A stretch of 64,000 bases of DNA from Mastigias papua (Eukaryota; Cnidaria; Scyphozoa; Rhizostomeae; Mastigiidae). The notes beneath the pieces are model-generated. The model worked only from the letters and a program-made list of their open reading frames with translations, searched no databases and was not told the DNA's origin. The position numbers and the translations under genes were made by a program. The stretch covers positions 4,587,840 to 4,651,839 of the forward strand of contig OZ025276.1 of assembly GCA_964019165.1 (NCBI GenBank), read 5' to 3'. Positions 19,099 to 63,049 of the stretch are shown in pieces; within the stretch, counting starts at the first letter, position 1, and the number at the start of each line of letters is the position of its first letter.

Positions 19099-20603
19099 GC
19101 TATTATATATCTAACTTCACAAAATGGTGCCATGACTATGAATAATGAATAAAAACATGACCATGACTTAACCAATTTGTAGTTTACCCCATGTTTCTTT
19201 CAAAAGTGCATGCAAGTTGTGGCGCACTTTTCACTATATCATCCAACTGAAGGACTGTAAGTGGGCTTACCCATCTATTCCCTGTCGTCTTCATGTGGTC
19301 TTCATGTGACTGATCATACAACAGTTTGGCACTTGGTGCGTTATTTGAAACTTGGATCGATCATGTCGGGGTCTTACTCTACTACATTCCTTTCAATAAG
19401 AAACCTATCAGAAACAGCACAACAATCTATTTAACACCATACCTTTCTTTCTCCAGCTATTGGCTATTGCACATTTGAAAGGAAGCTCCTCTATGATACA
19501 ATGCCTACATGGAGCAATGCACATACAGCTATTTCCTCTGCCACGGATAGAATCGCCCTACAAAGTTGTATGTTACATTAACGACCAAGATTCTGTGATC
19601 AATATTTGCATCATAGGAGATAAGATCATCCCTATCCTTTTGTTCATGAATGTGTAGGGCAGGGGTGATAAACTCATTCTCTTACCCGTTTTTTTATTTA
19701 AAACTAAGTAGTAGTCAGCTGCTCAAGGAAATAAGGGCACTTTAAGTACTGGGTGAAAAATACTTTTTAGTGTAGTAATTGTTCGAGAACAAATTGCTAT
19801 TACTATAGTTTCTTAATTTCCTTGGTTATTACTCGTTTCTTAAAAGCCAGTATTTTATGAAAGACATGCACATGCGTTTCTCTATACAAAATGTGTAGTC
19901 TGCCTCTAAGAAGTACGAGAGAAACCACATAAGAAAGTGTACACTTTCACTATATCTACATATATTAAGTGCTAGTATTAAGCATGCTAAGGAAGTATTA
20001 AATCATGAAACATGTTAAGGAAAGAGCATAGTTTATAACAGAGTAAATAGCAAACTGAACTCATTATGACGCAGGTGTAAAAGGCAAGATGGTTCCTATA
20101 TAGTAAATATTCAAATGGAATAGCATATACATAGCTATCAATTCCTGTCATACCCATCAGTGGAAAGTCTTAATTCCATTGTATAATCACCTAACAACAT
20201 AGCATGATTGCGTGAAACATGCAAAGAAAGGGCCCTACCTTTTCCGTAAGGCATCACAGAATATTTCTGCAAATCTCTAATATATTTCAGTGTCTTCCAA
20301 TCCCACTTACCATTTACAGCGCACACTGGCCATAGCTGATCTATTTTCCTCTTCCAAACTTTTTGCACTTGAGAATTTCGAGAAACTTTTACGGCATGGA
20401 CTTGTCAGACATAACGACCATAACAAATGGGAAGAACGTTAGCTCATTGAATAGATGCAACAACATGAGCCCACTTTACACGACACTTTTTAAACCTAGG
20501 TTACGTTAACCCGGGTTAAAGTTTTTGCGCTTTACAAGGCAAATTTGCTTTTTGTCGTGTAAAGTGGATCAGGGTTTAACCTGGGTTAATATTATCTAAG
20601 CGC

Positions 20604-34602: not shown

Positions 34603-34770
34603 TGTAGTCGGATTAATCACGTGACCCATCAATCATTCTTCATATATAAATTGTGATTACTGTAAATAGATTATTAGTTTTTGATTACGAGATTGCACTG
34701 TGAAGAAGTCTGTTTTCTGAACTATTCTCGTTCGGAACTTCGAATTGGTTATTCTTCGAAAACCATTACA
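34603..34770 (+). repeat. 5' LTR of the gag-only element
   Basis: 168 bp, TG...CA, TATATAA at about 34,643. Confidence 0.92.
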
Positions 34771-34817
34771 AAAAGTGGTGTAGGACCCGTCGCTTTCCTG
34801 CCCTCTCAACGCTCTTA

Positions 34818-37769: not shown

Positions 37770-37840
37770 TTATGTTTGTTAGCACACATGTAAAAAAATG
37801 TATACATTCGTCTCCATTTTTTTTGGTAGGTAGGGTAGAC

Positions 37841-38008
37841 TGTAGTCGGATTAATCACGTGACCCATCAATCATTCTTCATATATAAATTGTGATTACTG
37901 TAAATAGATTATTAGTTTTTGATTACGAGATTGCACTGTGAAGAAGTCTGTTTTCTGAACTATTCTCGTTCGGAACTTCGAATTGGTTATTCTTCGAAAA
38001 CCATTACA
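37841..38008 (+). repeat. 3' LTR of the gag-only element
   Basis: Same sequence as the 5' LTR as far as I can read; preceded by a purine-rich GGTAGGTAGGGTAGA. Confidence 0.92.
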
Positions 38009-39774
38009 ATAGAAGCACCCCCCTTGCTTGTCGCTCACATTACCTAGGTTGTCTGGAAGACATGACAGATGACTGTGCAAAAATGCAACTTGATGCTCAT
38101 ATTTGCACCCAGGTGATGGAGGCTTGCGAGTAATGTTTCAACAAGCTCTTTGTAGTTGGGTGCCTTTGTTTTTCCCAAGAAGAACTTTACTACATCCCTT
38201 AATGGCATCCAGGCATTCATTTCTGCATGATTCACAAAAGTACAGAAATTTGAGTCATTCATTAGCTTTCCATTCTGCAAAAATTCCAGCTTTTAATGTC
38301 TCTATGGTTAGGCCTGGACATTTTATGCAAATATATTTAAAACAGTCGCTATCTTTCTCAAGAGCCTTTACAAACTGTTTCATGATACCAAGCTTTATGT
38401 GAAGAGGAGGAAACACAATCTTGGAACGCTTCAACAAAGGAGGAGCCAGAGCATTGAGAGAGCCAGGAATCAGCTCACTGCGCACAGGCCAATCTCTTTT
38501 TATCCGGAGCTCTGTTCTTGCTCTGCTGTCCCACAAACACAAGAAGCAAGGAAATTTTTTGTAACCACCTTGTAGCCCATCGAGAAACCCAACCATTTTC
38601 AAATCGACACATATGATCCACTGGTGCTGTCTGTGTGAAACTTTCTCCAGAACAAATTTGATTTCATCATATTTTTTTTGAGAGTTGTTGAATGGCCTAG
38701 AGGAACTGATCCATATAAGTTGCCATTGTGAAGAAGAACACATTTCAAACTTCTTTTAGAACTGTCTATAAAAAGGCGCCAATCGTGGAGGTCATACTGT
38801 TGGACACCAAGCTGTCGCAGTAGACCAGCAATGTCGTTGCAATATACTATGCTGTTTTCCCAAGTGAAATATGGCAAGATTTCAATATGGCGTTTTCTAT
38901 AGAAGGTTACAAGAGGTCCATTCTGTAGTAGATTTTTGTCTTTGAGTCTTGAAGCCAGAAGTTCAGAAGATTCTTTGGAAAGGTTGAGATCTCTAGTCAG
39001 ATCATTAAGTTCTCCTTGAGAAAAAAGCTGTGGCAGTGAAGAAGGAGGAAATCGACATCTGAAACAGCACTGTCACTACTGTCAGTGGAGAAAATGGAGG
39101 CTTGGTCTTCTTCTAAGCCAGGCAATTCCAAGTTGAGCAAGCCTTCAAACACACTGGAACAGGAATGTCATTGCAGTGTGGAATTGGGCTAATTGCAAAC
39201 TGGAGATTTGGATAAACCAACAAATTCCTGTTCTTCCTGTTGATTCCCTTCGTGTTGACTGCACAGAAATAGCAGTAAGTCACATGATTTTCTGGTTCAT
39301 GCCAAACCATTGGAATACCAAAGCGGAGTGACTTTCTTTCCTTTTGTCTCCTCTGTCGAAGATGCTCAACATATTTCTTGCGTACAATATGCATGCAATA
39401 CTTTAAAGTAAGCAAGATAACCACACTTCACAAATTCACTGATCCCTCTCCTGGTGGATTGCACTAATTATTCCCCATAAATATAGCAAAACACATTTGG
39501 ATTCTTTAACCAAGGTTGTCTAGAAGATGTAGCCATGCTTAATTTTTGCTCCACAAATCTGCAACTCAAGTGAAATAATGGTGCATGTTCATTTCCTCTG
39601 TGACTTATAAATGACTTCCTTATATCAAAATAATAAACCTTACTGTGACCCAGAAATCAACAAAAAAATGCCACAATTGGTAGCCCTACCTACTACTCAG
39701 TGTCCACTTCATACCTCCTTGTATACCTAATAATAAACCTTAATTTGACCCAGAACTCAACAAGAACATGCCAC

Positions 39775-42650: not shown

Positions 42651-43161
42651 AACAGAGGAAACTTTTGTATTAGCCAATCAGAGGACCTCCTCATTGGCCA
42701 ATCAGAAGCCTGGATGGTGACATCACTTTGTTTACATTTTGCACGCCACCCCCATTTGTAATGGGAAAAACCTGGTCGCACAAATAAGGTCATCGGCAGT
42801 AGATGGGTCATTGAAACTATCCCAGTTTCTGGCAGTACTCTGCTAACGAGACAAACTAAAAATCTACTGCCACCCTAAGCGATATCTCTACAACTTGTTT
42901 CTGCAGCGACATTCAAAGTTCATCCTTCCTAAACTGCATTTTGACTTTGCCTAGGCACCCAGGGAGGATGAATCCCCATCAAAAAATGCTCATGCCTCAC
43001 CATCAATGCTGTTAAAATCCTTCACTTTACTTAATGTTAATCTTAACTGTACTTGTGATTCCTCCTTTCTCCGCAAAACGCGCAAAACATAGTTATGATT
43101 TGCAAATCTCCCGCCAAAACATAACACGAGAATGAGGACAAAGAAAATCAAAACTCTTATT
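42651..43161. repeat. Left TIR of the 9-bp-TSD element
   Basis: Inverted copy of 47,717-48,228, beginning AACAGAGGAAAC. Confidence 0.92.
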
Positions 43162-43611
43162 CAATAAGAAGTTTTTTCATCATGGCTGCATCTTGAATAA
43201 CAAATTTGTTGTAGACTACAAGAGAATTAGAGCCTTGCCATTGTATTGATTTTCATATAGCTGTAACCAATGCAATGTTTGAGTCTGATCTCAAGGTCTC
43301 AGTCTATACTTCATCGTTGACGAAAAGAAGAAATTTTCTTGACTATGTCTGGAGGAGAGTGGAGACTGGCCTACGTATCTTGTCTTACGGCAGTATATTT
43401 TATCTATTTTTCAGTCATTCAGTTGATAGGTATTTTGTTTATAGGATACAGTTGTCTAACTGAGTTGCATAGTTGCTTACACTAGGGTACGCCTTTGGCG
43501 GGAAAAATTGCTAGGCCTATCAACTCGTCATCGATTTGTTCCTTGGCTGCCTGTTCTCGTTTATTATAGTCCTGTGTAGATTGTTGTCAACGCATTCCTG
43601 TCAACGGCAGC

Positions 43612-46600
43612 ATGGGAAAGGTTGTTCGGTTGTGTAGCAATGCTTTGCACAACACTTGGTTTACAGGGTACCCAAGAAACGTGGACTTGTTGATACCAAA
43701 CCACCGATACCGAGAGGCCTTCAAAAAAGTCACAACCCACAATGGCTTTAAGCCTCACAGAGTTCGCTTTGTGTGTAAAAAGTGCATTGAAAAGGTAGAA
43801 AAGAAGAGAGATTTCACGCGTTTCTTAAGCTGTGATGAAGCCCCATGCTCTAGCATTGTGGAGGTTGCTATCTTATTCTCAACCTTTTAATTTGATGTTG
43901 TGAGATTTATGTCAATTCTAAGTAAAAATGAAGTATCATTCTAAGATCTCAACTGTGGTGGCATGTCTTTATAAATCTTTTACTTGAAGCCCAATCTATT
44001 ATTTTTCTCTGGCATTACAAAAAAATTTCTTGCTTAATTGTGGTTTTCCATGACAATTGTGTACTTTGCATTGTTTCAATCTGTCTATTATTGATCAAAA
44101 GTAAATGCTGCCATGTGTCTGCAGTTGAGCAATAGATCCATTGAAAAGGTTTAAGTAAATACTTTGATCATTTTAACTAGCTCCTGGTTCATCTCAACGT
44201 GGGACTAAAGCTATCTTACAGTTAAAATTGCAAATATAATCTGATTAGACAAGATTTGAAATTTAGTTGAAACAAACTATTTTGCAGCAAACATGTCCAA
44301 AAGTAATGGAACCTCAGGAGCCTGAAATGCTAATTCAAATGCAATGCAATGACGTCAAAGGTGCATGTCAACAAAATGACTCTGAGAGAACAGAGACACT
44401 CAGCTCCCCAAGCCAAAAATTATGGATCAGCTCCCAAGAGAGTAATGAGCTGTCATGCCCCAGTGCCTCAGGCTCAATTGAATACAAAGAGGACACAGAA
44501 GAAATAAAGAAATATACTGTATACTACAACGAATTAGGAAGAGAAGTAGAAAGTGATGAAAATAACAATGCTATCATAGATAGAGAGTCATTTGAAGCTC
44601 TTTTGAGTAAGGCAAATAAAATGTGTGACTTGAAGCAGGAGCTAGCATTATTACGATCAAAGTGCTTGCAAAAATTTGGAAAATGGGGCAAACCAATAAC
44701 TGACCCAGGGCAGTTTAGACACTTGTGTATAGAAGCGGGATCAGTAAAGTTATGTGATACTATAACTGAAGCAGTAAAAAGTGACAGACATTCAGAACAG
44801 AGACAGCTTCTTAATGAAAGAAGAGCAATTTAAATAATATATATGATGATGTACGGGCAGTCACAACAAGCACATTGGTTCCAGGTTGCGACTGCACGTA
44901 CAGTCAAAGGTTTAGGTACCTCATCTAGAGGAATAGAGACATTGTGAAATATGGGGCTGACAACACACCCCATAACAGCTTCAAAAGTAAGCAGAAAAAT
45001 GTCATTGAGTCACTACGAAAGTGTCAATAAATTTTTTCAGGAAGCAATTTCAAATAAACATATGGTGGTCATCTTTAATGATGATTACCATAACATCCAT
45101 ACAAATCACTGTCCAACAGATATAGCACAAACTCAACCAATTCACATGGCAACCTTGCTTTTGACGAGTTTTCAACTTATTAATGCAGTTTATTCTGCTG
45201 GGCCTCGTGATCAGGCCCCTGAGCCAGCAAACAATGGTCTATTGAGGCACCTCATTGACAAGAAGTCATCAAAGCTGGCAAAATCATATGTTGAAGTCAT
45301 GCCAGATTGGCTACAAGCCACGGTTTTTGATCCAGAGTCTCAAAGATACAGGCTCTTAGCCCATGACTATCAGCAGCATGACAGTTTGAAGATGAGGTCC
45401 ATGGAAGAGTGCAAGCTAGTTGACTGTGTGGAGCTATCACTAAAGTCAAGTGATGATTTTCATTCTGCACTTAAAATCAGTTTAGAAAGTGGGCTGCATC
45501 TGTATTTAGATCACTTTGTGGTCCCTATCATAGGAGATTGGCCTTGCCAGTTCTATGTCCGACACATTGTTTACTTTGAAGGCATCCATAACCTGATTCC
45601 ATTCATTGGTCCTTTGCATATTTCTCTGAATGCAAGGGAAAGCATTTTGCTACAGTTTCACACAGTGTTTTCTGATCTCTATGCTTTTCTTTTTAGTACC
45701 AACAAGCCTCTTGCAAAAAAGCCCAAACCATGGCGCATATCTTTCCTCCTTGACGTTTTGTATGGTGGGTGGCTTCTTGTCCGTGATGCTATAATGTCAG
45801 TATTTGTTACTTCAAAGGATGTGCAGTATCTGGTTTTGCTAAACCTTCTTGATTCTTTGTCCATTTACTCTGTTGTCTTCAAAGGTAATATGGCAGAACT
45901 TTACTATGAGTCACTGCTTCGTTGCTGGGTGATGTTTTTGATGTATCAGAGAAGGCACTATGATAAAGCACCACTAATTGCTCTGTCACCACTAATTCCA
46001 CTAATATGGAGTATTGGAAGAGCATTGATCATCCTCTTGTCTATACACTGCTATCTTATGTTTGTGCTTTTGACGAGTATCCAGTGGAAAATTTTCATTC
46101 AGTTCTACGAGCACATACACATATTACTGATACTCCAGAAATGATAAGCTTGGCAACTAAGGAGATTGATGCACAAAAGGATGAACTGCGTAATTTCCAA
46201 TCTACATTTGTTTCTAAAAAAAGCAAAATTTTACACAAGAATATTGAATTTTTGACGATTAAAGCAGCTGGATTTATTGCAAAAAATTTAAGTTGATCTT
46301 TGAAAAGCCAAATCAAGGAACATGGGTGAAAGCCCCTACAAAGAAAAGCAAAAGCAGAGTGACAAAATGGAGCTTACCTGACATATTTGGTGATGCCAGA
46401 TTGTGACTAATGATGTCCTACCACTGGGCTTTTTGTGCCATGAACTGTCTCCAGATCCAAACAAGTATGCCCTCCTTATATATAAGCAAATATAGAATTA
46501 AAAACTTTTATACACCATAGATCTTCTGTGCAAATGGATCTAACACTTTGCAGTAATTCATTGTGTTCACAACTAACATGTGAAAATGGGGGCATTGTAT

Positions 46601-47649
46601 CAAAGTTATCATGGCTATTTCAAATCATATCATAGTTTGACCTAGTTTTAAATATCATAGCTGTATAAAATAAATACTTTATAGCAAACAGAGAAAAATA
46701 AATCATTTATGCTTATAGGAATCAGAGGGGTGCAGAGGGAATGTACTATTTGACTGGTTCTAGGCACTTTTGAGGTCATGTTAAACTCTTATCTGCATTA
46801 GGGGGTGGTCATAAAGTATCTCTCATGGAGAGCAGAGGCTTTTTGAGAGGGATGTGTAATAAAAATGCTGGGGCTTTAAAAAATACAAGAAAATTGAGGG
46901 GGGATAGCGCAAGTATTACCTATATTTCAAAACTAGAATTGGAATTTACTTCTTCAACCCACTATCACAGGATTTTATATGCATTTCTAAATGTTCTTGT
47001 GAAAACCCTTGCTAAGGTTCTCTGTAAGTTTATTTGCAAAGTCTAAAGCAAATACATATGAATTTTTTCAGGAGGGGGTATGAAGTATGTTTTAAGTACT
47101 TTTTGAGTTAAGTTAATTGCATATAATTATAATTTCACTACATACAAATAGAAGCAAATACATACAAATGAAGCATATTTTCATTTGAAAACAACGCACA
47201 CCGGTACTTATTGCTGACAGTTACCTGGTGATAATTTTTCATGCTCCCCATTGTATGATTTTCATTGTAGGAAATGTGACTTGAAAAACTTTTCACGTAA
47301 TGAATGCTCAATTTGGCGCGTATTTCACGGATGTGGTCATTCCTTCCATACAGCCTGTTTGCTCCCAAACATCGGTTCGTGCCCAATTTGCAAGGGAGTA
47401 CTGAAACACTTTGTTGAGGATCTCAGTGAAAAGGCAAACAACTCTGTACTGAACCCAGACATTTACGGTGACAGTGATGATGAAGATAAGTGCGAAATGG
47501 GTGGTGATGATGAGAACAGCGTCGAGGGAGATGACGAAGCTGACCAAGAGTCTTATTTTGGTGAAGCTGAACATGGTTGCATAGAATCTCTCATTGATGA
47601 CATTTTACGTTGGAAGAGACCTTCTCTGAGTAGTGTTGCCATTCAATAG
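43612..47649 (+). pseudogene. Large TE protein with C-terminal RING-like finger, decayed
   Basis: Only gene of the 42,651-48,228 element, so the likely transposase. Blocks: 43,612-43,890 (Cys-containing N-terminus, FVCKKCIEKVEKK); 44,267-46,464 main exon; 47,271-47,649 last exon. The intron 46,465-47,270 begins GTATGC, ends TGTAG and joins in frame before KCDLKNF. The main exon has VVIFNDDYHNIHT, IGDWPCQFYVRHIVYFEG, GPLHISLNARES, a GGWLLVRDA stretch and FDEYPVENFHSVLRA; these Asp/Glu motifs could be a DDE-type active site (inference). The last exon has GCGHSFHTAC then SCPICK, a RING-H2-like pattern, plus an acidic tail. In-frame TAA (44,831) and TGA (44,945), and a frameshift near 45,990, make this copy inactive. 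I recall related proteins from sponges and corals but no named superfamily. Confidence 0.6.
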
Positions 47650-47716
47650 TGCCCTCTCCTTACCACGCTTGTTCTCCCTGTTCACCATGTTCGCCATGAT
47701 GAACAAACTTCATGTT

Positions 47717-48228
47717 CAATAAGAGTTTTGATTTTCTTTGTCCTCATTCTCGTGTTATGTTTTGGTGGGAGATTTGCAAATCATAACTATATTTTGCGCG
47801 TTTTGCGGAGAAAGGGGGAATCACAAGTACAGTTAAGATTACCATTAAGTAAAGTGAAGGATTTTAACAGCATTGATGGTGAGGCATGAGCATGTTGTGA
47901 TGGGGATTCATCCTCCCTGGGGGCCTAGGCAAATTCAAAATGCAGTTTAGGAAGGATGAACTTTGAATGTCGCTGTAGAAAAAATTTGTAAAGATATCGC
48001 TTAGGGCCGCGGTAGATTTTTAGTTTGTCTCGTTAGGAGAGTACTACCAGAAACTGGGATAGTTTCAATGACCCATCTACTGCTGATGACCTTATTTGTG
48101 CGACCAGGTTTTTCCGATTACAAATGGAGGTGCCGTGCAAAATGTAAACAAAGTGATGTCACCATCCAGGCTTCTGATTGGCCATTGAGGACGACCTCTG
48201 ATTGGCTAATACAAAAGTTTCCTCTGTT
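47717..48228. repeat. Right TIR of the 9-bp-TSD element
   Basis: Inverted copy of 42,651-43,161. Confidence 0.92.
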
Positions 48229-49705: not shown

Positions 49706-49729
49706 TAAGAATGTAACATATTGCTAATG

Positions 49730-49984
49730 TATGGTGGCCCATCGTTATCATCACTTGTTTATCCTAACATATTGAGAAATAGTAGTCTTGTTGCAAAAGT
49801 ATTTTGTAATATAAATTATAATGTAAGTATAATATAATCAAAATAAAATTCTATGCTATTCAAAACAAACCTCTAACTTTTACTTTTCAGTTTACTTGGG
49901 GCTTCAAAATGTTTCATTTTGTTTTTCTTTTCAACTTTTTGTGCGTGGCCCATCATTATCATTATCAATTTCAAAGCAAGGCAG
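49730..49984. repeat. Left TIR of the kinase-carrying transposon
   Basis: Inverted copy of 60,826-61,065. The terminal word GTGGCCCATC-TTATCATCA occurs twice, at the tip and again at about 49,945-49,967, suggesting two transposase-binding sites. Confidence 0.88.
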
Positions 49985-50039
49985 ATGCAGAGCTCCATGA
50001 ATAACTCTGTGGATCATCAACTTCAAAGCTCAGATTGAC

Positions 50040-51164
50040 GTGTACCTACATAGTTTGATTGCTCTTTGTACTGACATGGCTTGGAAAGATGATAGAGCAA
50101 TGGCTGCTGATTTAGAAAAGTATGTCAGTCAAAATTTGCAGCGCGCCGAAAACCTAGACTTCATGAAACGTGACTACAACATCTACCGGTGGTCTTTGCC
50201 CACACTGGACAGAAGATTGCGTTATTTTGAACTAAAATACATAGATGCGAATGCTATATTAGATAATGTGAAAGAAGTGGTTCAAAGGGAGCTTGATGGG
50301 CCTGGAAAACTTCTAGGTTACAGGGCCATGAACCAGACATTGCGGACAGAACATAGCATCAAGGTACCTCGGCATCTTGTGCAATGTGTTCTATATGACC
50401 TTAATCCAGAGGGAGTCAGCCAACGTAGGCTAGAAAATAGGAAGAAGCCTAGAAATCGGCCTTTCAGATCAAAGGGGTCCATGTTGGTGGTGTCAGTGGA
50501 TGGACATGATAAGTTGTGTGGGTATCAAAACAGCACTGTTCCTCTTCGTGTGTATGGCTTTTTGGACACTTTCTCAAGGAAGATTCTGTCTCGGAAAGGT
50601 ATGTCCTCTAAGTCAGATCCTGTAATTATTGGACGATTGTACTTTGACCTATTTAATGAGCTTGAAACAATGCCTGTATATTTGAGAATGGACAGAGGCA
50701 CAGAAACTGGCAAAATGGCATCAATTCATAGTTATTTGATGTCTGGACAAAACATGTTTGATAATCCTATTGATTCTGCTGTCTTTGGCCCTAGTACTAC
50801 AAACAAGATTGAAAGATGGTGGGGGGATCTTCATCAAAGGCTAGAGAAGTTTTTTACAGTGCAACTCCAGGATTTGTTAGGTGCAAATGAGTATGATCCT
50901 GCTAATGAAAGAGATAGGCAGCTGCTGGCATATCTTTACATTCCTGTAGTGCAGCGCGAGTGTGACATTTGTGTGACAATGTGGAACAGCCACTGAATAA
51001 AAGAGCAGACAAAGCTAGAACGTACCACGGGCATTCCTGACCATATGCTCTCTTTTCCAGATCAGTATGGTTGGAGTAACATGAGAATTCCCCTCTCTAG
51101 AGATAAACTTGAAGAAATTGCAGCAGCATCTGGCATTTTAGATTCCCTGGTCAACATTTTTTAA
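50040..51164 (+). CDS. Integrase-type DDE transposase (one in-frame TGA)
   Basis: Retroviral-integrase-fold transposase. Catalytic residues D154 (VSVDGHDKLCGY), D218 (LRMDRGTETGKMA) and E258 (TTNKIERWW) show spacing of 64 and 40, as in rve-family enzymes. The N-terminal ~110 residues are helical and look like a DNA-binding region. The frame stops at TGA 50,994-50,996, then the same frame continues with recognisable family sequence (GIPDHMLSFPDQYGW) to TAA at 51,162. One CGA-to-TGA change would explain the stop, so the gene is nearly intact but probably inactive. No good ATG lies upstream before a TGA at 49,998. GTG is the first codon of the reported frame, so the true start is unresolved and may involve splicing from the TIR. 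Confidence 0.8.
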
Positions 51165-51169
51165 CCAAG

Positions 51170-54100
51170 TGTACATAACATTCGTGAACAGAGCTTACCT
51201 CATCCGGAAGCTGTGCAAGCCAAAGATGTAAAAGATAAATATCTTTTCTTAAGGAGCTTAGCCATCAGAAATTGAAAAAAAAACAAAGCTGAAAGTTGTA
51301 GAGCCAATATTATGAAAGAGTCATGTTATTTGAGAAAAAGTTGAATTACATTATCTATCAAATATTAATAGTAGAGGAGGATTTCAAGATCAGACATAAA
51401 ATAGAAAAGAAACTGTTCTGCTTGGTATTATATGGGTCCATGGTTGTTAAAATAGTACTGAATATCTAGGAAAGTGTTGCCAACTTTGATTGAATTTCAA
51501 TAGTAAGAACAACAGATGTCAGGGAAGGAACTAGCGGGTAGAGTCTCCTTCTTAAAAGTAAGAGAGTATTTGGGGCTCAGCACCCCTAGAAATCACATTT
51601 TTGGTTTTATTAGTTCCTATCCTAACATTTAACAGAGGGGGAATAAATAGACGTCACTGGTATCAATAGAAGGAGAATACTCAGGATAGAATGCTCTTTT
51701 CTAATGTTAAAAGGAAAGATACCACTAAATGGGTCCTGTTTCTGAGAAAACCACTTTTGGTATTTTTGTTACCATTTATAAATGTATGAATGTATTTGTG
51801 GAGGATAAGCATGCACTATTGCACAGTTGCCTTAAAAACTAGTTTATGTGCATTCAAAGTGCCCTTTTGCACTTTGTGATTGTGTCCTTCTTATATCCTA
51901 GATAAAACACAAACCATGGAATGTGTGTTAAGCAACTTTCAATTGAAATTTTTTAGGATTATTGGCCAACACAGTTGCTTGGTTTAAAGGCTATGGCTCA
52001 TTTTTATCAATTCCAAGCATTTCACAAAATTGGTTGCACTTATAATCACACAAAAATTGTTGACTTGCAACAGAAGATAAATTTCTAGCACAAAAGTCCA
52101 CCACTCCCAGGGGCAGATCCAGAGATAAAACTGATTGCTGCACAGCACAAGAAACATATCAGTAAAAGGGCGTGGCCCAAAGGCTGTGCTGTGGCCACAC
52201 CCATGTTTTTACCAGTAGCATATATTTACGATTTTTGTGGGATTCGCTTCTCTTCCAGCAATCCTCCTATATCATACAATAGCCTTCATTCTTTGAAGTA
52301 CAATAGTGAGCATACAGTTATCGCGACAGCCTTAATTTGATTCTCTAATTGTCTTTCAAAATTTCATATCAAACTCATATCTGTTCTGTTTTGTTGGCTC
52401 AGCATAGAACAAAGAAAGTAAGTGATTGGCTCTCCTGAAGTCTGTCAGACTTTCTGGATCCACATCTGGGTATTACAAGTCAAAACATCAGTTGTTGGAA
52501 CCATAGAGAAAGTGTCCATCATACAATAATACTTTATATTATAAAACTAATAACCTTTCATTTTCTCTAAAAGCCCACTATAATGTACTAAATCAGTAAT
52601 CAATGTACTTTCGATGAGATGGCTCCACCATTCAATTAAAATTCATTTTTCTGCATTTCATGTATGTACATTGCATTATATAATGCAAGTCAGGACCTCT
52701 ACGTGCTTGGATAACAAAACGGAAGAGTGTATGTTCCTAGCACCATAGTAGTACTGCCCAATGTAGACCTAAGTCAATTTATAACAGTCTTCCTGACTGT
52801 AAAAGCTTGATCATCACAATGATGGGGATGTTCTGTCTGGCACACAAGATAAGTGCCTTCAGTATAGACAAATGCTTATTAGCTTCAATTATATTGTCAA
52901 CTGATTGCCTATAAGGTTTGGTTAAATGTTCAACATGACATTTTAAAATTTTGAGGAAAGTGTTTGTAGTCATAGGAGATATTCTGTGAATTTGAACATT
53001 TTTTCAAGCTCCTACCTTATTAGGTCAAATAAGTATATAAGATGCATTCATTACCATATGGAATCTGAAGGAGTTCATATCCATTCTTTGACGAAATGAA
53101 AGCAATTGGAGACAAAAAGCAGCATTAATGAACCCAGAATAAGAAGGGTACAGGTGCATTGATAACAATGTAGGGATAAACCTTCTATTCTTTAAGATTG
53201 ACACATAAGGCATCTAACCTTTGCACCTGGTTTCTAAATCTTCTCCACTGTTTCAAATATGAACCAATCATCTAGTGTGACAGTTCATAAAAACTGATGA
53301 TAGCAAAATTGCACAAACTAGTGGGGGTGGGGCATTGATAGGGCTCCTTCCATACATTACATCAGTATCACAAAAAGTAATAGTACTAACAGAGAAAAGA
53401 TTCATTGAGGATGTAAAGTATGGTGATAAACGGTAATTTCTATAGGGTTTACATGGGAAAGACAGTTTTATCTGCTTTCTTTTGAGTAACCAGAGGAATC
53501 CATATATGTTGTAACAGTGTAAGTAATCACAATGATGACTGGCATACACAGTATGGTATGGTTTAAAAGAAGAATCAATTTCTTTGGTGCTATTTCCTTC
53601 TCTACACAAAAGGAACCTTTTTGCATTCTTACTGCATATATTCTTAGGAGAAACTAACACCGCCAATCTAAAGATATGTAGATACAGTCCTTTTTATAAG
53701 AACCAGTAAAATTGAGGTTCCTGCTGGCTGTTCTTAATTTTTCAAATTTTCAGTATGAATTGCTCTTAATGTCCTCCTAAATGATTGGGGTGTAGGCAAT
53801 TTAGACATTAGACTATATACTGTACAAGAGAACATTGGGCGTTTATGAAACTGGTATTATTCACGTTGATGATTTGGGTGTTTCAAAGTTCAAAAAGTTA
53901 CACAATTTGCTAAACAATAGAGTAAATAATAGTAAATAATCAGCTATGTAAGTAAATACAATGAAGCAAAAACAATTGCAATGTAACAAACAAAATAGGC
54001 CAATGGATCTAAATGAAGAGAGTCTAATGGGCTTAGGGAAAAATCTACTTTTGAAAATGTCACGTTGGATGATACCATCTTGGTTCATAAAGTGAAAGTA

Positions 54101-54248
54101 AATACCAGGAAAACTCCGCTTTGCCGGGGAGGATGCATAGTCTCTTCATTGGTACAAATCTTAAAGTGGACCTTCCGTAACCAAATCTTTATAGATGTAC
54201 ACGAGATGTAAGTCGAGCGGCATTGCACTACTGCACGACTTTCCTGAC
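51170..54248. other. Interior of the kinase-carrying transposon
   Basis: Mostly non-coding. 52,108-52,467 may be a small hAT-like MITE: CCCAGGGGCAGATCCAGAG at the left resembles the complement of TTTCTGGATCCACATCTGGG at the right, with no clear duplication. 52,990-52,779 (-) encodes a stretch (NIIEANKHLSILKALILCAR) like the DUF4371 region of hAT transposases. Open frames at 53,025-54,088 (-) are not recognised. Confidence 0.35.
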
Positions 54249-54430
54249 TGCCGCTCGATTTTTAATCAAAAAGACCGCCTATTGTTTTCACATTTGACAT
54301 GCCGCTCGATTTTTTTATCAAAAGTGCCTTCTATTGTTCTATGATTGAAATGCCGCTTGATTTTTTGATGAAACAGTACCGCCTATTGGTCTCATGATTG
54401 AAATGCTGCTCGATTTTTTAACGGCTAGAC
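54249..54430. repeat. ~52-bp tandem repeat, about 3.5 copies
   Basis: The unit TGCCGCTCGATTTTT...CGCCTATTG...TGA recurs at about 54,249, 54,300, 54,352 and 54,405 with point differences. Confidence 0.8.
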
Positions 54431-54595
54431 AATTACTTTGACTAGAACTGACATCTTACACAATCAATTGTGACATGTTGTACAAAGCAGGGCCTCCATA
54501 GCTCTATTGTTACCAAAATGCTGCTATATTGTCTGAGGTGCCGCACCAAAAGTCCAATGTAGAACTACATTCGTTAAAGACTATCGTGTTCTTCT

Positions 54596-55830
54596 TCAAT
54601 ACTCGGAAAGCAGTGATGATGTCATGGTACGTAATATTTTTGAATGCCGCACAGGTGGCGTGTGCGGCGCCCTGGATCCGCCTCTGACTCCATCACAAAG
54701 TAAGTCAACAGTTGCAAGTTCTGGGTCGCAAAGATTATAGTCAATCCCTTGTAGGTGAAGGACCATCATATTTTGCTTTGTGCTCTTGTATGTGTACTGA
54801 GCAAAACACTCAGTTTTACAAAGAAGCTCTGTAAAGTGTCCTGACAATTGATAGTTGATCTGGCCATTGTTGTTGATATACTTATGAAAAGAACCAGGAA
54901 TATACTCTTCTAGATTGACAGGGACATCACCCATCATGGCAAAATATATATTACTGTTGTTGAAGCATTTCCCAAACTTTGAAGGGGAACTCTTTGCAAA
55001 ACTTAATGCCAGTGCTCTGGCAGCAGCATTTTTTGGACTTGTTTGTATGTGTAATGAACACTACTTAGATGACGTGTTTGTATTATGTTGTTGATACTCT
55101 TGTCCTTTGCTTTCTTTAGAACCCATTTACTGGGCATCCCTGACTTTGTAGGTGTTGCAATGAAAGCATCCCTGAATCCTCCTTCTGCAAAGTTCTTTTT
55201 CTCAAGTACCACGTCTAGTGTTGTAGCTGTGCTCCAAGTTTTGTTAGTTACATCAAAACTTTGCAAAACCAGGGTGACAGATGACACATCTGGAGGCTCC
55301 ACCAGCTTTCCTGCTGCCAAAAGATCTGCAACAGAAACTGATTTTGCAACTGCCACTGATTGTGCAAATGCACTTGGTGGGACACTAGAAAGGCTAGGCC
55401 CAAAATCAGAGAATCTCCTTCCACTTTCCTTAGAGGGCATGCGTGAAGGAGTGCTTACCAGGTATTTTCCTCTGATCTCGCTTGGAGCATACAGTGCAGC
55501 TTTACACCTAATTTTTACTGGCTCAAGGAATCGAACCATGTAAAATGTCTTTCCTGTTATCTGTTCTGTAAGGAAGTAAGAGGGCCCTCAATCTGTTAGA
55601 AGTACATCACATGTACCAGCTGGCATTTCAAAGAAATTTTTACATGCTTCTTTTATGTTTTCTATTGAGAGCTCTTCATAGGACAAAAAATCAACAAAAT
55701 CTCTTGTATCCAAGGGCTCAAACTTTTTCAGATGATTTGCTTCGTCTGTCATCCTATGCACTTGAAAATGACTTGGGACAGTAGTCTTTGTCTTTCCCAT
55801 GGCTTCTCCTTTCCGTTTTTTGGCAACCAT
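54596..55830 (-). pseudogene. Alpha-type protein kinase (MHCK/EF2K family), TE cargo, damaged
   Basis: Alpha-kinases phosphorylate Ser/Thr with a fold unrelated to most kinases. The N-terminal block (55,830-55,591; VPSHFQVHRMTDEANHL) runs to an in-frame TGA (55,590-55,588), and the same frame resumes (55,539-55,003). It contains EGGFRDAFIAT (Gly-rich N lobe) and SKWVLKKAKD (nucleotide-binding Lys region). A frameshift in an A-run near 55,030 leads to the C lobe (54,937-54,596): YFAMMGDVPVNLEEYIPGSF, HFTELLCKTECFAQYTY, then MMVLHLQGIDYNLCDPEL. The family normally has Asp where this reads His in VLHLQG, so catalysis is doubtful. After DPELATVDLL the reading runs into CAGAGGCGGATCCAGGG-type sequence resembling another element's end, so the C-terminus is cut. 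It lies just inside the right TIR of the 49,730-61,065 transposon. Confidence 0.82.
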
Positions 55831-56133
55831 CTTCTCTTATACATGGAGGTTTCTTTTCAACATCTCGCTCATCGTATATTGGGCAATCTACTCTGTGAAG
55901 GAGCGTGATCGACAGCACCAAAGAAGTTAGTCTCATTTTCATTTCAGCATGGACGATGATAGTGTTGGGCCATTGGCTAAACAGGTGCGAAAAGGGATGT
56001 TTTGGACATAACCCAAAACCACAATATATTTGAGAAAAAGGCATCAATTTTGTCCTAGAGTTAAAATGATAAGCTCTTCTTTTCACACATAAAAGCTTTC
56101 AACAAGGCAGGTCAATAAAGTCAAGGACAACCA

Positions 56134-56416
56134 TGTTATATTGGCAGTTACAACACAGAAAAACCACTGTTTTCTTTGAGAAATACAACATATATGAGAT
56201 ATCAACTATATAGAGAAAACTGCCATGAAGAAGTAAACAGAAAAGAAAAACATGGAAGCTATAAAGTATTGCAGATAAAAGAATCACACATAGGTATTGT
56301 TTAGAGGAGGAACATCTTTTGTGCGCTAGTAAGAAAGTTGAGAGTGATTGACAAATGGAAAACAAAAGGTTATCAAACAAAAGGAAAACAAAAGGATATC
56401 ATCAACAACTACAACA
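56134..56416 (-). repeat. 3' LTR of the Ty3/gypsy element
   Basis: 283 bp with about 11 differences from the 5' LTR, so the insertion is older than the gag-only element at 34,603. Confidence 0.92.
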
Positions 56417-56471
56417 TCTTCCCTTTTTTGAGGAAAATAAGTCCATTGTCCAATAAAAAAGTTATTATAAA

Positions 56472-59400
56472 TCAAGTATATATAAGTTTTTGTGGAGGTT
56501 TCACTAAGCGTCCTGATAGAGTTCTGTACTGATCTTTTATAAGCTCTTTGTTTTCTTGAACGTGGTGTTGTCTTGAACATGGTTTTTCTTTAGATTTTAC
56601 AAGTTCAGTTGTTTGCCCCTGATCATCATAATCATGATCGATAATGATATCACCGTAATCAATGGGTAGTTCTTGTTGGAAAGGCTCATTGGTCTTCAAA
56701 AGATGGCGTTGATTGCGACAAAAATTGTGCCATTCTGTGTTAAAACTTTATACGATCTTGGCTGATCACATTTGTCAATAACAGTACCTTTTAGATACCA
56801 AGTTCCTTTCTGACAAATTCGTATAATATCATTTAACGACAGAGGTAGCAAATGTTTAGAATGCTCATTGTAGTGTCGCATTGTGTAAGATGATTGTTTT
56901 CTTGGAGAAAGTAACTGTTGACTCTTTGAGACACTAGCAAAATTTAAACATGGAAGTAAAGTTCTCGGATTTCTGTTCATCAGCATATAAGCAGGAGACT
57001 TGGTGTTTTCCTTAGTTGGTGTTGTACGTAGAGCTAAAAGACCAAGGTAGACATCATCGCCACTTTGAACAACTTTCCGCAAAGTCTTTTTCACTGTTTG
57101 AATAGTGCGCTCTATCAATCCATTGGATTGCGGATATCTTGGACTTGACGGGTTGAGCTTAAAATCCCACTGCATTGCAAAAGTAGAGAAACTAGTACTA
57201 GAGAATTCTGGACCATTGTCGGATATGACCTCTTTAGGTATGCCATGTCTGCTAAAGATACTCTTGAGATGAGTAATGACAGTTTGATTCTCCTTGTCGG
57301 GAATCTGAGAAATCTCCATAAACTTGGAATGGTAATCTACAGCAATGACGTAATCTTTGTTGAACAAAGTAAAAAGATCTGTACCAATTTTTTCCCATGG
57401 AGAATTGGGTACATCGTGGGAAATGAGAGGCTCTCTTTGTTGGCTGTTTTGATGATCAATGAAATTCGAACAGTTCAAAATCATGTCAGTGATTTCGGCA
57501 GTAATATTTGGCCAAAAAACACTATTTCTTGCGTTGGCTTGAGTTCTCGAAATGCCAATATGACCCTGGTGAAGAATAGATTTAATTTCAGCTCGCATCT
57601 TTAATGGGACAATCACTCGTTGACCCTTCAAAAGAAATCCATCGTGGTACGATATCTCTTCCCGAATACTGAAGAACGGTTTGACTGATTGATGAAATGC
57701 AGAAGGCCAACCATGTAGTGTGTACTTATTAAGCAATTGGAGTGTTGAATCTTCAGCAGTCTCAAACTGTAACTGTTTCCACCGTTGCTCACTTATGGGT
57801 AGATTCGAAACTATGGAATGGATGTATAATTCCATTTCAGATTCAGGTATTTCGGACATCACATCCTTCAGATGAGCACGACTGAGAGCATCTGAAACGT
57901 TCATTTCTTTTCCAGGCACAAAGTCAAGATCAAATCGGTACTTTTGGAGATGCAAAATAAAACGTTGAATCCTTGGAGGGCACTGAGTTATCAATGTAGA
58001 GAATATTGACTTTAACAGTCGATGATCACTGAAAACAACAAATGATCGTCCATGCAAATAATCATGAAACTTTTCACACGCAAACACTATAGCCAAAGTT
58101 TCTTTTTCTATCTGGGCATAATTGTGTTCAGCAGAAGTGAGAGATCTAGATGCAAATCCTATAGGTTTTCAAATTGCATCAGTATCTTGCTGCTCTAAAA
58201 TGGCTCCAAGACCATGAGAACTAGCATCAACAGACACTCTAGTAGGCTGAGATGGATTGTAAAACTTGAGAACTGGAGCTGTTCTTAGAACCTTTTTTAA
58301 TCTATTAATGGCAGCTATCTGTGGCTCATCCAAAGACCACACAGAGTCCTTGATTAAAAGCGTTCTGAGTGGAGCCGTTAACTCTGACAAGTTGTTAATA
58401 AAGTTACCTAGGTAATTGACCATACCTAAGAAACTCTGGAGGCTTTTCTTGTTCTCAGAAATAGGCATGTCACGCACAGCAGATAGTTTTGCTGGATCAG
58501 CCTTGATGCCATCACTAGATACAATGTGACCCAAAAAGTTAATTTGGCTCTCTCCTAAAATACATTTTTCTTTATTTAATTTCAAACCTGCTTTAGATAT
58601 GCTCTTGAGAACTTGTTGCACCTGATTGTCGTGTTCAAATCTAGAGTTTCCCCAGACAATAATGTCATCTTGTGAATTTGCTGTTCCTTCAATACCAGCA
58701 ATTATATTAGCTATTTCTACTTGAAAAATTTCACTCGCAGAATGAATGCCAAATGGAAGCCTTTTAAAATGATATCGACCAAAAGGTGTTGCAAACGTCA
58801 GTAACTTGGAGCTTTCTTCATCAACCTATATTTGCCAATATCCCTGAGAAGCATCAAGTTTAGAGAAATATCGTGCCTAGGACATTTGAGATAAACTATG
58901 TTCAGTTGTGGGAAGCTGAAAATGTTCTCTTTTGATAGGTCTGTTTAGAGGTCGTGGATCCAAGCAAATTCGGAGCTTCCCATTGGGCTTCTCAACAATA
59001 ACAAGACTGTTAACTCAATCAGTAGGCTCTTGAATTGGAGTAATAACACCATTTTTAACCATTATATCTAACTCAACTGTAAGTTGATCTTTTAACGCTA
59101 TGGGACTTTGTCTTGGTGGCATAACAACAGGTTTAACATCATCTTTTAACATAATATGGTATTCACAAGGTAACATTCCTAGCTCACCAAAACAATTCGA
59201 GAATTTGGTTAGTAAATCTTGGTAACAATTTTGAACATTATCTACCATCATCACTCTTTTAATAAGGTTTAGCTTCTCACTAGTTGGAAGGCCAAGTATT
59301 GGTGTGGATATCGTATCAACAATAACAATCATGACTGGAACTGACAGATTATTCTTGTACTCCACATTAGCTACAAATGTACCCTTAACTGGCATATCAG

Positions 59401-59716
59401 AACCATTGTATGCAGTAATTTTGGCTGTAGATGAATGAATTTTAGGTCTGGGTTGGAGATGCAAAAATATACTTTCTGGTAAAATATTGCACTGTGCACC
59501 CGTGTCAATTTTAAACTGAATGGAACATTTGTTAATGCATAAATCCACCGACCAATCAGACGAATTGACATCTTGTTGGACACTCAAAACTTTGCGTTTC
59601 CGGCTCTTATTGCAAATAACAGGTTTGGCAATACCTGAAGCGTTAATTGTGCCTATAAAAAATTCCGAATTTTCATCTTCACTGGACGAAGAATAATCAT
59701 GAGTAACGTGATGCAC
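56472..59716 (-). pseudogene. Ty3/gypsy pol (protease, RT, RNase H, integrase)
   Basis: Protease active site FKIDTGAQCNILP near 59,500. RT follows (RICLDPRPLNRP, then DDIIVWG near 58,660), then the RT connection and RNase H (SVDASSHGLGAIL; VVFSDHRLLKSIF). Integrase has a zinc-binding HHCC motif missing its last Cys (NCSNF), core Asp in GTDLF, Asp in VISDNGPEFSS, and Glu in SNGLIERTIQT, then a C-terminal part to 56,472. In-frame stops lie near 59,017, 58,877, 58,830 and 58,170; all fit single G-to-A or C-to-T changes. The coding is otherwise well kept. Confidence 0.88.
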
Positions 59717-60489
59717 ATACTTACTTTGGCAGAACTTTGCAAAATGGTTTTGTTTTTTGCATTTATGGCATTTGCGACCATAAGCTGGACAATCTCCACG
59801 CTTGTAAGATCTTCCACAGAACTTGCAACTGTTAAGTATAGTTGACTTATTGCTGCCAGGTTGAGACTTAATAGATGCTTGAGGCTTAAAAGGCTTGGTA
59901 TTTTTTTAATGTAATGGACAGATGATGGCACTTCTATTCCTTCTGACAACTCCTTGACATGCTGTTTTGTTTCCTCTGCAGCTTGTCCTACTTTTATTGC
60001 CCGTTGCAAATCCAATTCAGGTTCTCGAAGCATTCTCTCTCTTTCCCGGCTATCATTTACACCACAAATTATTAAATCGCGTATCAGTGAATCTGTACGC
60101 TCCCCAAAGTCACACTCTTCACTCAATTGACGTAACTCCGTGACAAAAGCAAGGAACCGTTGTCCCTCAGATTGCCGATAAATAAAGAATTTGTGACGCA
60201 ACATAGTAATATTTTTTCTTGGGTGACAGAAATGATCAAACTTTGCTATAATAAGAGCAACCTTCATTCGATCTTCATCGCTATCGAATTGACTTGTATT
60301 ATAGATTTCACGACCTCTGTGACCAATACAAGTAAGCAAAATCGAAGGTTTTGTTTTATCGGGATTCTCATCGGATTCCGTTGCAGCGAGAAATAGCTTG
60401 AACTGTTGTCTCCATTGCCGCCATGCCTGACACAAATTTCCAGAGTCAAAGTTCAAAGCACCAGGAGGAGGTAACGTATCCATGGTCAC
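59710..60489 (-). pseudogene. Ty3/gypsy gag
   Basis: Structural capsid protein. It opens MTMDTLPPPGALNF just downstream of the primer site, with a helical Gag domain (WRQWRQQFKLFL ... FLAFVTELRQLSEECDF). A one-base slip in an A-run near 59,905 shifts the frame. The nucleocapsid Cys/His motifs (CKFCGRSY, CHKCKKQNHFAKFC) are read only in the other frame. The shift could be programmed, but the homopolymer and other lesions suggest decay. Confidence 0.8.
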
Positions 60490-60530
60490 GGCCTAGCATT
60501 CATCCACATCTATTACCACTTCTGGTACCA

Positions 60531-60810
60531 TGTTATATTGGCAGTTACAACACAGAAAAACCACTGTTTTCTTTGAGAAATACAACATATATGAGATATC
60601 AACTTTATAGAGAAAACTGCCATGAAGAAGTAAACAGAGAAGAAAACATGGAAGCTATAAAGCTTTGCAGATAAAAGAATCACACATAGGTATTGTGTAG
60701 AGGAGGAAAATCTTTTGTGCGCTAGTAAGAAAGTTGAGTGATTGACAAATGGAAAACAAAAGGATATCAAACAAACGGAAAACAAAAGGATATCATCAAC
60801 GACTACAACA
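60531..60810 (-). repeat. 5' LTR of the Ty3/gypsy element
   Basis: 280 bp; on the - strand it starts TGTTGTAGTCG and ends ATATAACA. Confidence 0.92.
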
Positions 60811-60825
60811 AACGAAGTCCAAAAT

Positions 60826-61065
60826 CACCGCCTCACTTTGAACTTGATGATGATAATGATGGGCCACACGTAAAAAGTGGAAAAAAATACAAAATGAAAA
60901 ATTTTGAAGTCCCAAGTAAAACTGAAAATTAAAAGTTAGAGGTTTGTGTTGAATAGAATAGAATGTTATTTTGATTATATTATACATACATTATAATTTA
61001 GTTTACAAAATACTTTTTTCTCAATATGTTAGGATAAAACTCGATGACAACGATGGGCCACCATA
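60826..61065. repeat. Right TIR of the kinase-carrying transposon
   Basis: Inverted copy of 49,730-49,984. The inner edge is cut by the gypsy 5' LTR a few bases away (60,810). The tip motif is repeated internally at about 60,844-60,868. Confidence 0.88.
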
Positions 61066-61071
61066 CTAATG

Positions 61072-61930
61072 CTATTGAGGCTATTTGGCAAATTCAAGCC
61101 GATCAAACTTAGAGCTTATGTCTCTACGTTTAAAATAGTACAAGATATTACATTTATTATAGCATGATAAAGCAGGAACACTCTTTTAGCATACTGATAC
61201 TCTTTTTTTGTTTGACACTCGTCAGAGTAAGAAATGTTGGATAATTACCAAAAGGTGAATTGCATATATAGCCAGATGCAGATATACGTCATATGATGAA
61301 TAATGCATCTATTTGGCCAATCATAGGGCTGTTGTACACTTGGTTGTTTGATCCCCCCCCCCCCATCTCTAAAAGGAAGTTTCTAGACATAAAAACCAGG
61401 GAGAAAGACTTTTGAAGCATTAACGAGACATTAAAATGATCACTACAAAAGGTATTTCATGAAACATCATTACTATTGTTAAAAAACATCATTATATTAG
61501 AACAGGGGGTGTCAAATTCATTTGGCCCAAGGGCTACATAAGGCATAATATGGGACCGCAATGACTGGGTTGGTTGACAGAGCCTGAGAGGGCTAGGTAA
61601 TAGGGGCTTTCAAATATACATAACTCATTGCATGTTTCCTATCTGTATTCAGCCTTGTAAATGCCACCAGTAAACGGCTCTATTACAATGGGGAAAATAT
61701 CGCTAGATGTCAGATAGTTCACAATTCCTAAGGGGAAATAGTGATGTAATTGGGCTGCAGGCTGTATGTTTGACAGCCCTGTATTAGAAGTAATAGAGAG
61801 TTTCAGAACCACTAGCGAGCTTACGATTGCACTACACAGACTAATACGACGACCTTGTGAGTGGAAGTCACGTGGCAATGTACGTAGTGGATGTTTTTAG
61901 CTTACAAAGACACTACGTAGGGGACTACAT
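61072..61930. other. Spacer between transposons
   Basis: AT-rich with a C-run near 61,350-61,362. No gene. The left end of the next Harbinger-like element probably lies in its last ~120 bp but no TIR can be confirmed. Confidence 0.45.
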
Positions 61931-63049
61931 ATGAGACTTTCCCGCCAAAAGTGTAATGTCAACATGGCCAATTTTGATCAACTACAAGACATTTTGGGGG
62001 GAGCACACGAAGCGCATTTGATTGACGATGAAGACCTTCTTCTGTTACACAATCGTCATCGAAGAAAAAATCCCGTATTTCCTTATTGGAGATATGAAAA
62101 ATTCGATCTAGACACAATGGACAAGTATGAGCATAAGGCTGAGCTTCGATTGTGGAAGAATGATGTTTACATCTTGCTTGAGGCATTGAGATTTCCTGAA
62201 CAACTTCGTTGCTATAATGGGGCCGTTGTAGATTCAGTTGAGGCCCTGTGCATTTTCTTGCAAAGAGTAGCATATCCGTGCAGATATGGTGATTTACTTT
62301 CACAGTTTGCTAGGCCAGTTCCTCAGCTATCTATGATGACCAACCGTGTCGTCAGTGACATTTACGATAGGTTTGGGCATCTTCTGCGTACAATGGATCA
62401 GCCATGGCTTTCCAGACATAATTTAAAGTTATATGCAAATGCTGTTCATGCCAGAGGAGCTACGCTCGACAACTGTTGGGGATTTGTGGATGGAACTGTT
62501 AGACCCATTTGTCATCCAAAAAGAAACCAAAGACTTGTCTACAATGGCCATAAGAGAGTCCATGCTCTCAAATTTCAATCGGTAGTAGCACCTAATGGAC
62601 TAATTGCAAATGTCTATGGTCCAGTTGAAGGGCGTAGGCATGACAGTGCAATGCTTGCTATGTCTGGGCTCCTAACACAAGTAGAAGAGTACTCATTTTC
62701 ACCTGAGAACCAGCCTCTTTGTATCTATGGAGATCCAGCCTACCCCCATAGAATTCACCTTCAATGTCCATATCAGCAAAGACATAACTTGACTCCAGAG
62801 CAGCAGGCATTCAATCACTCTATGAGCCAAGTTAGAGTGTCTGTTGAATGGATATTTGGTGAAATAGTCTCATATCTCAAATCTGTGGACTTCAAAAAAA
62901 ATCTGAAGATTGGTTTGAGTCCTGTAAGCAAGATATATGTTGTATGTGCACTTATGAGAAATGCACTAACATGCTTATATGGATCAAATACTTCAGAGTT
63001 TTTTGGAATCCAACCTCCAACCTTGAATATGTACTTGCATGGAGATTAG
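61931..63049 (+). CDS. Harbinger-like DDE transposase, intact frame
   Basis: A DDE_Tnp_4-type nuclease from a lineage distinct from 20,604-21,947. Catalytic residues are D187 (CWGFVDGTVRPI), D268 (CIYGDPAYPHRI) and E306 (VRVSVEWIFGEI). Other conserved stretches are VYNGHKRVHALKFQSVV and GPVEGRRHDSAML. 372 codons, uninterrupted, normal length. M12 (MANFDQ, codon at 61,964) may be the true start. A coiled-coil partner lies convergent at 63,400-64,000, as in Harbinger pairs. The right end of the element lies beyond the window. Confidence 0.88.
   Translation: MRLSRQKCNVNMANFDQLQDILGGAHEAHLIDDEDLLLLHNRHRRKNPVFPYWRYEKFDLDTMDKYEHKAELRLWKNDVYILLEALRFPEQLRCYNGAVVDSVEALCIFLQRVAYPCRYGDLLSQFARPVPQLSMMTNRVVSDIYDRFGHLLRTMDQPWLSRHNLKLYANAVHARGATLDNCWGFVDGTVRPICHPKRNQRLVYNGHKRVHALKFQSVVAPNGLIANVYGPVEGRRHDSAMLAMSGLLTQVEEYSFSPENQPLCIYGDPAYPHRIHLQCPYQQRHNLTPEQQAFNHSMSQVRVSVEWIFGEIVSYLKSVDFKKNLKIGLSPVSKIYVVCALMRNALTCLYGSNTSEFFGIQPPTLNMYLHGD

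Follow-up and report, generated by a model that had tools for sequence, protein, structure and literature searches.

Does the alpha-kinase gene enclosed in the DNA transposon at positions 49,730 to 61,065 of the window belong to that transposon, or was it merely picked up? The window is the whole 64,000-nucleotide stretch of contig OZ025276.1 (GCA_964019165.1) that was analysed here. A sequence-only reading of it had described a unit with long terminal inverted repeats (TIRs) that carries an integrase-type transposase and, as internal cargo, an alpha-kinase, all moved as one piece. In the window itself the structural part of this description was confirmed: the flanking CTAATG duplications are exact, and TIRs of about 250 bp enclose both genes. 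Our results indicate that the kinase is almost certainly a resident gene of the mobile element. The word cargo had to be given up, since the kinase follows the transposase across subfamilies as a conserved second gene.

Copies of the two-gene element and evidence of movement

The TIR tip was searched in the genome (347 Mb, 172 contigs) and found, at up to 3 mismatches, in 184 places, vs. 11 for a reversed control pattern. We fetched 20 tip pairs, chosen by hand among 100 listed of the 184 tip places; single loci are given below by L numbers, of which L001-L008 are 3-kb pieces around tips that stand outside the element analyses. Both genes were found inside the TIRs in 19 of the 20 fetched elements, so that copies in which the transposase never comes with the kinase, the outcome that would have spoken against the sequence-only reading, were not what the genome held. 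The lone exception, L025, retains only N-terminal pieces of each gene. The 6-bp duplications were exact in 14 elements and had one mismatch in five, and one element (L015) had none. All 20, picked by their tip, end in TATGG..CCATA; L035 and L038, found via the kinase and not the tip, have the same termini and an exact 6-bp duplication.

Ten of the copies share a length of 3,607 bp, with 0-4 base differences between them. Every one of them has an open kinase frame of 440 codons and an open transposase frame of 408 codons, and nine have their own exact 6-bp duplication. Full-length two-gene copies elsewhere with separate duplications, proposed earlier as the check on joint movement, were thus found. 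The near-identity of this subfamily points to recent movement. The flanks differ between copies, except for an 18-base match of two right flanks. For L017 the left and right flanks are alike via a local repeat, and the same holds over 16 bases for L015. The left flank is common to L026 and L027 (98%), which therefore probably represent one insertion copied with its surroundings and not two. The same TIRs enclose both genes at many loci, each with a separate duplication, and, judging from these copies, the element moves as a unit with the kinase inside. The possibility that the kinase always sits at one host locus was rejected by the many kinase loci and many insertion sites.

L025 (G000:C1:9328890-9330410) is a 1,023-bp non-autonomous derivative with an exact 6-bp duplication. 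Among the matches listed, at least six tip pairs are spaced roughly like this, L025 included.

Structure and decay of the window copy

The stretch 49730-61065 is probably the decayed remains of a cut-and-paste DNA transposon of IS3EU type with two genes. Its parts, in order, are as follows.

49724-49729: left target-site duplication CTAATG, an exact match to 61066-61071
49730-49982, plus strand: left TIR, 253 bp, tip TATGGTGGCCCATC, with an inner direct repeat of the tip about 215 bases inward
50076-51275, plus strand: transposase gene with PF24764 integrase core (E 1.6e-11), its frame broken by in-frame stops
51991-52104, minus strand: C-terminal end of the alpha-kinase, last ~37 residues (FCARNLSS...CNQFC), with the nested element lying between it and the main part
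52108-54686: nested element of ~2.6 kb that interrupts the kinase close to its C-terminus and has short TIRs, CAG(G/A)GGC(A/G)GATCCAG
54692-55830, minus strand: main part of the alpha-kinase, PF02816 toward the C-terminal side, its frame disrupted by a single in-frame stop and a single frameshift
56134-60810, minus strand: Ty3/Gypsy-type long terminal repeat (LTR) retrotransposon of ~4.7 kb, with reverse transcriptase, RNase H and integrase matches
60830-61065, minus strand: right TIR, 236 bp, with an inner direct repeat of the tip about 198 bases inward
61066-61071: right target-site duplication CTAATG, an exact match to the left one

The two TIRs are about 84% identical across 254 aligned positions, and the termini are TATGG..CCATA. 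In the window the 20-base tip occurs at two places, both of them element ends (the right one with 1 mismatch), and it occurred in none of 100 shuffles of the window. The alpha-kinase, whose PF02816 match reaches 53.9 bits (E 3.1e-14; curated cut-off 21.3), starts at about 55830 and is convergent with the transposase. The short piece at 51991-52104 translates into a peptide similar to the C-terminus of the intact kinases.

The bulk of the 11.3-kb element consists of two later insertions (~52108-54686 and 56134-60810). The first has a possible 5-bp duplication, ACTCC, and its boundaries, set by eye, are approximate. The second lies between the alpha-kinase start and the right TIR; its LTRs (56134-56416 and ~60531-60810) are 96% identical. 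Both genes are broken: in-frame stops interrupt the transposase, and the kinase has a stop, a frameshift and an insertion. From its sequence, the window copy is old. A predicted structure of its transposase fragment alone had a mean predicted local distance difference test score (pLDDT) of 40.8 and was not used.

Co-occurrence of kinase and transposase

To count kinase loci, all 94 candidates of a PF02816 genome search were scored, which gave 88 matches and 84 merged loci. The search with the transposase protein gave at least 115 matches in at least 88 merged loci, at least 76 of them with a piece at least 40% identical (IS3EU-like); these locus counts are lower bounds because 102 of 310 candidates were scored, and the pairing figures that use them hold among the scored candidates. 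An alpha-kinase was found within 10 kb of 57 of the 76 IS3EU-like loci and the orientation was convergent in all 57 pairs, whereas none of the 12 distant transposase loci had a kinase within that distance. Conversely, at least 61 of the 84 alpha-kinase loci had a transposase match within 10 kb. When the PF24764 family was searched instead, a match lay within 10 kb of 50 of the 84 kinase loci, in 48 cases convergent; about 0.006 PF24764 loci would be expected so close to a kinase locus by chance. Eight high-scoring kinase loci chosen regardless of the tip (L033-L040) all contained transposase pieces.

The remaining 23 of the 84 kinase loci had no transposase match within 10 kb, and six of them were inspected. 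L045 has a transposase tail and L048 is a host-type alpha-kinase with the motif TDPQIHT. L029 is a decayed relic of transposon type, L030 and L031 hold kinase pieces and no transposase, and in L032 neither gene was detected by tblastn.

A kinase does not accompany every PF24764 gene: 49 of 98 merged PF24764 loci had none within 10 kb. The proposition that every such gene has one was rejected on L041-L044, kinase-less members of a distant lineage whose transposases are about 24-32% identical to IS3EU transposases; L042 is one of the highest-scoring kinase-less PF24764 loci. No TIR-like inverted repeats bracketing the gene were found in these four. The inverted repeats of L041 are local, and those of L044 arise because part of the gene is present a second time, inverted, at the border of the sequence retrieved. 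The distant frames of L042 (G000:C18:1438500-1443000) and L043 (C6:12406500-12411000) have 517 and 405 codons, respectively, and are without a kinase; an extra frame adjoins each, and these two neighbour frames are alike. Both PF24764 genes are perhaps domesticated.

Conservation of the kinase protein

In four relatives the PF02816 score was 104.6-117 bits, far above the cut-off given earlier. We tabulated 13 kinase positions, which we take to be the ATP lysine, the DxQ and DP motifs, the GN loop and the zinc ligands. All 13 were unchanged in 11 of 18 loci. L024, L037, L039 and L040 have one altered position each, L022 three and the window copy four; in L028 one is altered and the end of the protein is missing. 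As the alignment shows, the intact copies keep the predicted catalytic and zinc positions of an alpha-kinase.

The catalytic domain matched solved structures of eEF2K (E 2.5e-12), a TRP-related channel kinase (4.1e-10) and MHCK A (7.2e-10), and thus resembles eEF2K, TRPM7-type channel kinase and myosin heavy chain kinase A. The element kinases read DPEIAT or DPEIAS where eEF2K has DPQIHT. The N-terminal ~190 residues had no Pfam match, and their best PDB hit (E 0.18) was not significant.

Shared history and selection

Close pairs aside, the kinases are 30-57% identical among elements. Kinase and transposase distances were strongly correlated (Mantel r 0.79, 17 elements, L036 being excluded for its short transposase; 0 of 5000 permutations as high), and since several of these elements are closely related they do not count as 17 independent points. 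The two gene trees have many groups in common: L033+L034; L035 with L039+L040; those five together; L024 with L037+L038; L009+L020+L023; L019+L022; and L021+L026+L028. The window copy joins L021+L026+L028 in the transposase tree, and the same group plus L019+L022 in the kinase tree. Trees and distances show, as far as sequence comparison can, that kinase and transposase are copied together and diversify together.

Comparison of subfamilies gave differences of 0.59-0.67 at third codon positions, close to saturation. At second positions the values were 0.26-0.38 for the kinase (9 pairs, 5 sequences) and 0.19-0.30 for the transposase (10 pairs, 5 sequences), codon pairs containing a stop being excluded. 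We regard this as a sign of purifying selection on both genes, apparently somewhat weaker on the kinase.

Several results weigh against the view of the kinase as a resident gene, the incomplete scoring of transposase candidates among them. No PF02816 match was found within 10 kb of 19 of the 76 IS3EU-like transposase loci. Four of the 19 were inspected: L049 and L052 contain kinase pieces, and no kinase was found in L053 or L054. L053 is 1,789 bp long, with inverted repeats 98% identical, an exact duplication GAGCTG and a truncated transposase; by this structure it is an internal-deletion copy that moved without a kinase of its own, and a kinase in cis is therefore not needed for movement. The placement of L019+L022 is the chief conflict between the two trees, so that an exchange of kinases is possible. 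For the close pair L021/L026 the ratio of nonsynonymous to synonymous divergence (dN/dS) of the kinases was 1.4-1.7, as expected of decaying copies and not of constraint. Between subfamilies dS is saturated, and the single dN/dS that could be obtained was 0.175.

Transposase and TIR anatomy

In the intact reference relative the transposase has a DD39E spacing (D147, D211, E251). The D-D-E triad is retained in 14 of 18 loci. Two of the three residues are lost in L024, the gene is incomplete in L036, and L039 and L040 have S at the last position, which may be an alignment error because the matches end there at an intron-like break. The N-terminal part of the L023 transposase gave a helix-turn-helix match below threshold, and no H2C2 integrase domain was among the Pfam matches of the element proteins. 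Scans of viral and genome contig collections with the transposase confirmed no relative.

In L035, L039, L040 and L053 the transposase match ends at about residue 250, between NK and IERWW of the catalytic motif, as if at an intron. The L033 transposase is broken near residue 200, while the frame of the 3,607-bp lineage is uninterrupted. The kinase reads through without a break in L033, L035, L039 and L040, and L053 is without a kinase.

The intact copy L009 has TIRs of 254 bp that are identical to each other. Measured from the element ends, the transposase ATG is 267 bases in on the left and the kinase ATG 358 bases in on the right, i.e., about 13 and 104 bases past the TIRs. The statement that each gene begins just inside a TIR is thus correct for both genes of L009; for the window kinase it failed, since the Gypsy element sits between this gene and its TIR. 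As the 5′ region of both L009 genes is largely the same DNA, it is anatomically plausible that the TIR may serve as a common promoter.

In 21 of the 26 TIR arms the 20 bases beside the tip are found a second time in direct orientation, some 156-311 bases further in (no more than 6 of 300 shuffles were as good). The repeat is weak in both arms of L020 (16 and 18 of 300 shuffles as good) and fails in L022 right, L024 left and L028 left. Because both arms of an element are alike, the count per element is fairer: 13 of 14 elements have the repeat in at least one arm. For L033 and L034 the right end falls at the limit of the retrieved sequence or outside it, and their left tips were defined by tip sequence alone. 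Subfamily variants of the tip are repeated inside the TIR as well, exactly in L034 and with two mismatches in L035, as expected if one transposase binds both sites. In Sleeping Beauty-type inverted repeat/direct repeat (IR/DR) transposons, the transposase site is present twice in each long TIR, as direct copies at an outer and an inner position, and the TIRs described here resemble this arrangement. Sleeping Beauty-type elements have an unrelated Tc1/mariner transposase, a TA duplication and one gene.

Relation to known transposons

The element very likely belongs to IS3EU, an assignment set by its ends, duplication length, gene order and domain content. IS3EU/GingerRoot elements are described in PMC10045372 as having TA..TA ends, usually 6-bp duplications and an integrase-type core, and in all three the element here is alike. 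Its transposase is integrase-like, of DDE type and without an HHCC domain, as are the IS3/IS481-related transposases of IS3EU. The word kinase is absent from the main text of that paper. For rust fungi, IS3EU with 6-bp duplications and TAYGG..CCRTA ends was described (Kojima 2025, PMC12730594), and families of rust fungi and Tuber with a TET/JBP gene were reported there. According to the same source, in all TET-positive families TET/JBP lies between transposase and alpha-kinase, which are oppositely oriented. An alpha-kinase in such a transposon is therefore already in print, whereas the sequence-only reading knew of no description. Compared by description only, ends, duplication length and opposite gene orientation are alike; the fungal families described also have TET/JBP between both genes (PMC12730594). 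We noticed no third gene in the 3,607-bp copies, where no search aimed at TET/JBP was made; besides both genes, their four longest frames include only frames of up to 133 codons.

In the open-access literature on alpha-kinase and transposase only PMC12730594 was apparently relevant. We found there no description of the pair outside fungi, Repbase entries and most subscription journals lying beyond this coverage. New here are the recently moved copies, the selection on the kinase, the inner tip repeat and the kinase-less copy that moved.

Possible role of the kinase and alternative explanations

What could a transposon do with a protein kinase? We propose that the transposase would bind each TIR both at the tip and at the inner repeat, excise the element and join it across a 6-bp stagger. 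Each TIR would be the promoter of its adjoining gene, so that both genes would be expressed alike. The kinase would serve the element in trans, and its substrate would most likely be the transposase or a host factor restraining transposition. That its role is the regulation of transposition is a tentative proposal, which we hold with slightly less than even confidence. In a wider and equally tentative form, the alpha-kinase may be an ancestral core gene of IS3EU, present in fungi and this genome, that controls the transposase or the host in an element with outer and inner TIR repeats; it may have seeded most alpha-kinase loci here, and the expanded repertoires of some eukaryotes may be largely transposon genes.

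A role in countering host silencing or another host defence, and not in transposition itself, is rather unlikely, while it is the alternative that fares best. It has a parallel in fungal DNA transposons, IS3EU among them, whose TET/JBP dioxygenases were proposed to aid escape from methylation (Kojima 2025, PMC12730594). The purifying selection on the kinase between subfamilies agrees with it, and so does the movement of the kinase-less L053, from which it follows that any action of the kinase can be in trans. However, the pairing, with convergence in 57 of 57 pairs, suits a core gene at least equally well, and the target of a kinase in host defence is only hypothetical.

Membership in another integrase-type superfamily (Ginger1, Ginger2 or IS481EU) is improbable. 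Ginger1 and Ginger2 make 4-5 bp duplications according to PMC10045372, whereas those found here are 6 bp; together with the TA..TA ends (TATGG..CCATA) this length suits IS3EU/GingerRoot, and the opposite-orientation alpha-kinase was reported for IS3EU in PMC12730594.

We consider it very unlikely that a host alpha-kinase was captured as a passenger useless to the element. Transposons do capture genes, and the genome also contains the host-type alpha-kinase of L048 with its TDPQIHT motif. Yet key residues are kept among kinases only 30-57% identical, second codon positions are constrained, and kinase distances follow transposase distances. Finally, a chance neighbourhood, with long TIRs accidentally enclosing a transposon gene and a host kinase gene, might be imagined from the window copy, where the genes lie a few hundred bases apart and the kinase is split by the 2.6-kb nested element, and can be dismissed together with single-copy cargo, given the same arrangement in many copies at different places and the expectation of about 0.006 loci stated above.

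With the kinase as a resident gene, the many copies in one genome show that eukaryotic DNA transposons can include a protein kinase as a permanent component. The ten near-identical copies with both frames open are direct material for probing its role in transposition. In genomes of this kind a tally of alpha-kinase genes may mostly be a tally of transposon genes, at least 61 of 84 loci here being near a transposase. The same figure, from this one genome, is what bears on the suggestion of the sequence-only reading that carriage by a transposon would explain the uneven expansion of alpha-kinases in some early animals. If the host is an animal, the gene pair spans fungi and animals.

Other mobile elements in the window

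An element of ~5.6 kb occupies 42651-48228; its 536-bp inverted repeats are 95% identical, its ends are AACAGAGGAAAC..GTTTCCTCTGTT, and it has an apparent 9-bp duplication, AGTTACATC, a length we take to be typical of Mutator-like elements (MULEs). Its two longest frames (44267-44833 and 44948-46144) matched no Pfam family at E 0.001. At 34603-38009 lies a probably young LTR element with 169-bp direct repeats that are 100% identical and a 1021-codon frame between them that is without a Pfam match. A Helitron frame at 9723-12836 gave Helitron_like_N and PIF1 helicase matches. Two DDE_Tnp_4 transposase frames, presumably Harbinger-type, were found at 20580-21947 and 61901-63049, the second less than 1 kb past the right end of the kinase-bearing element.

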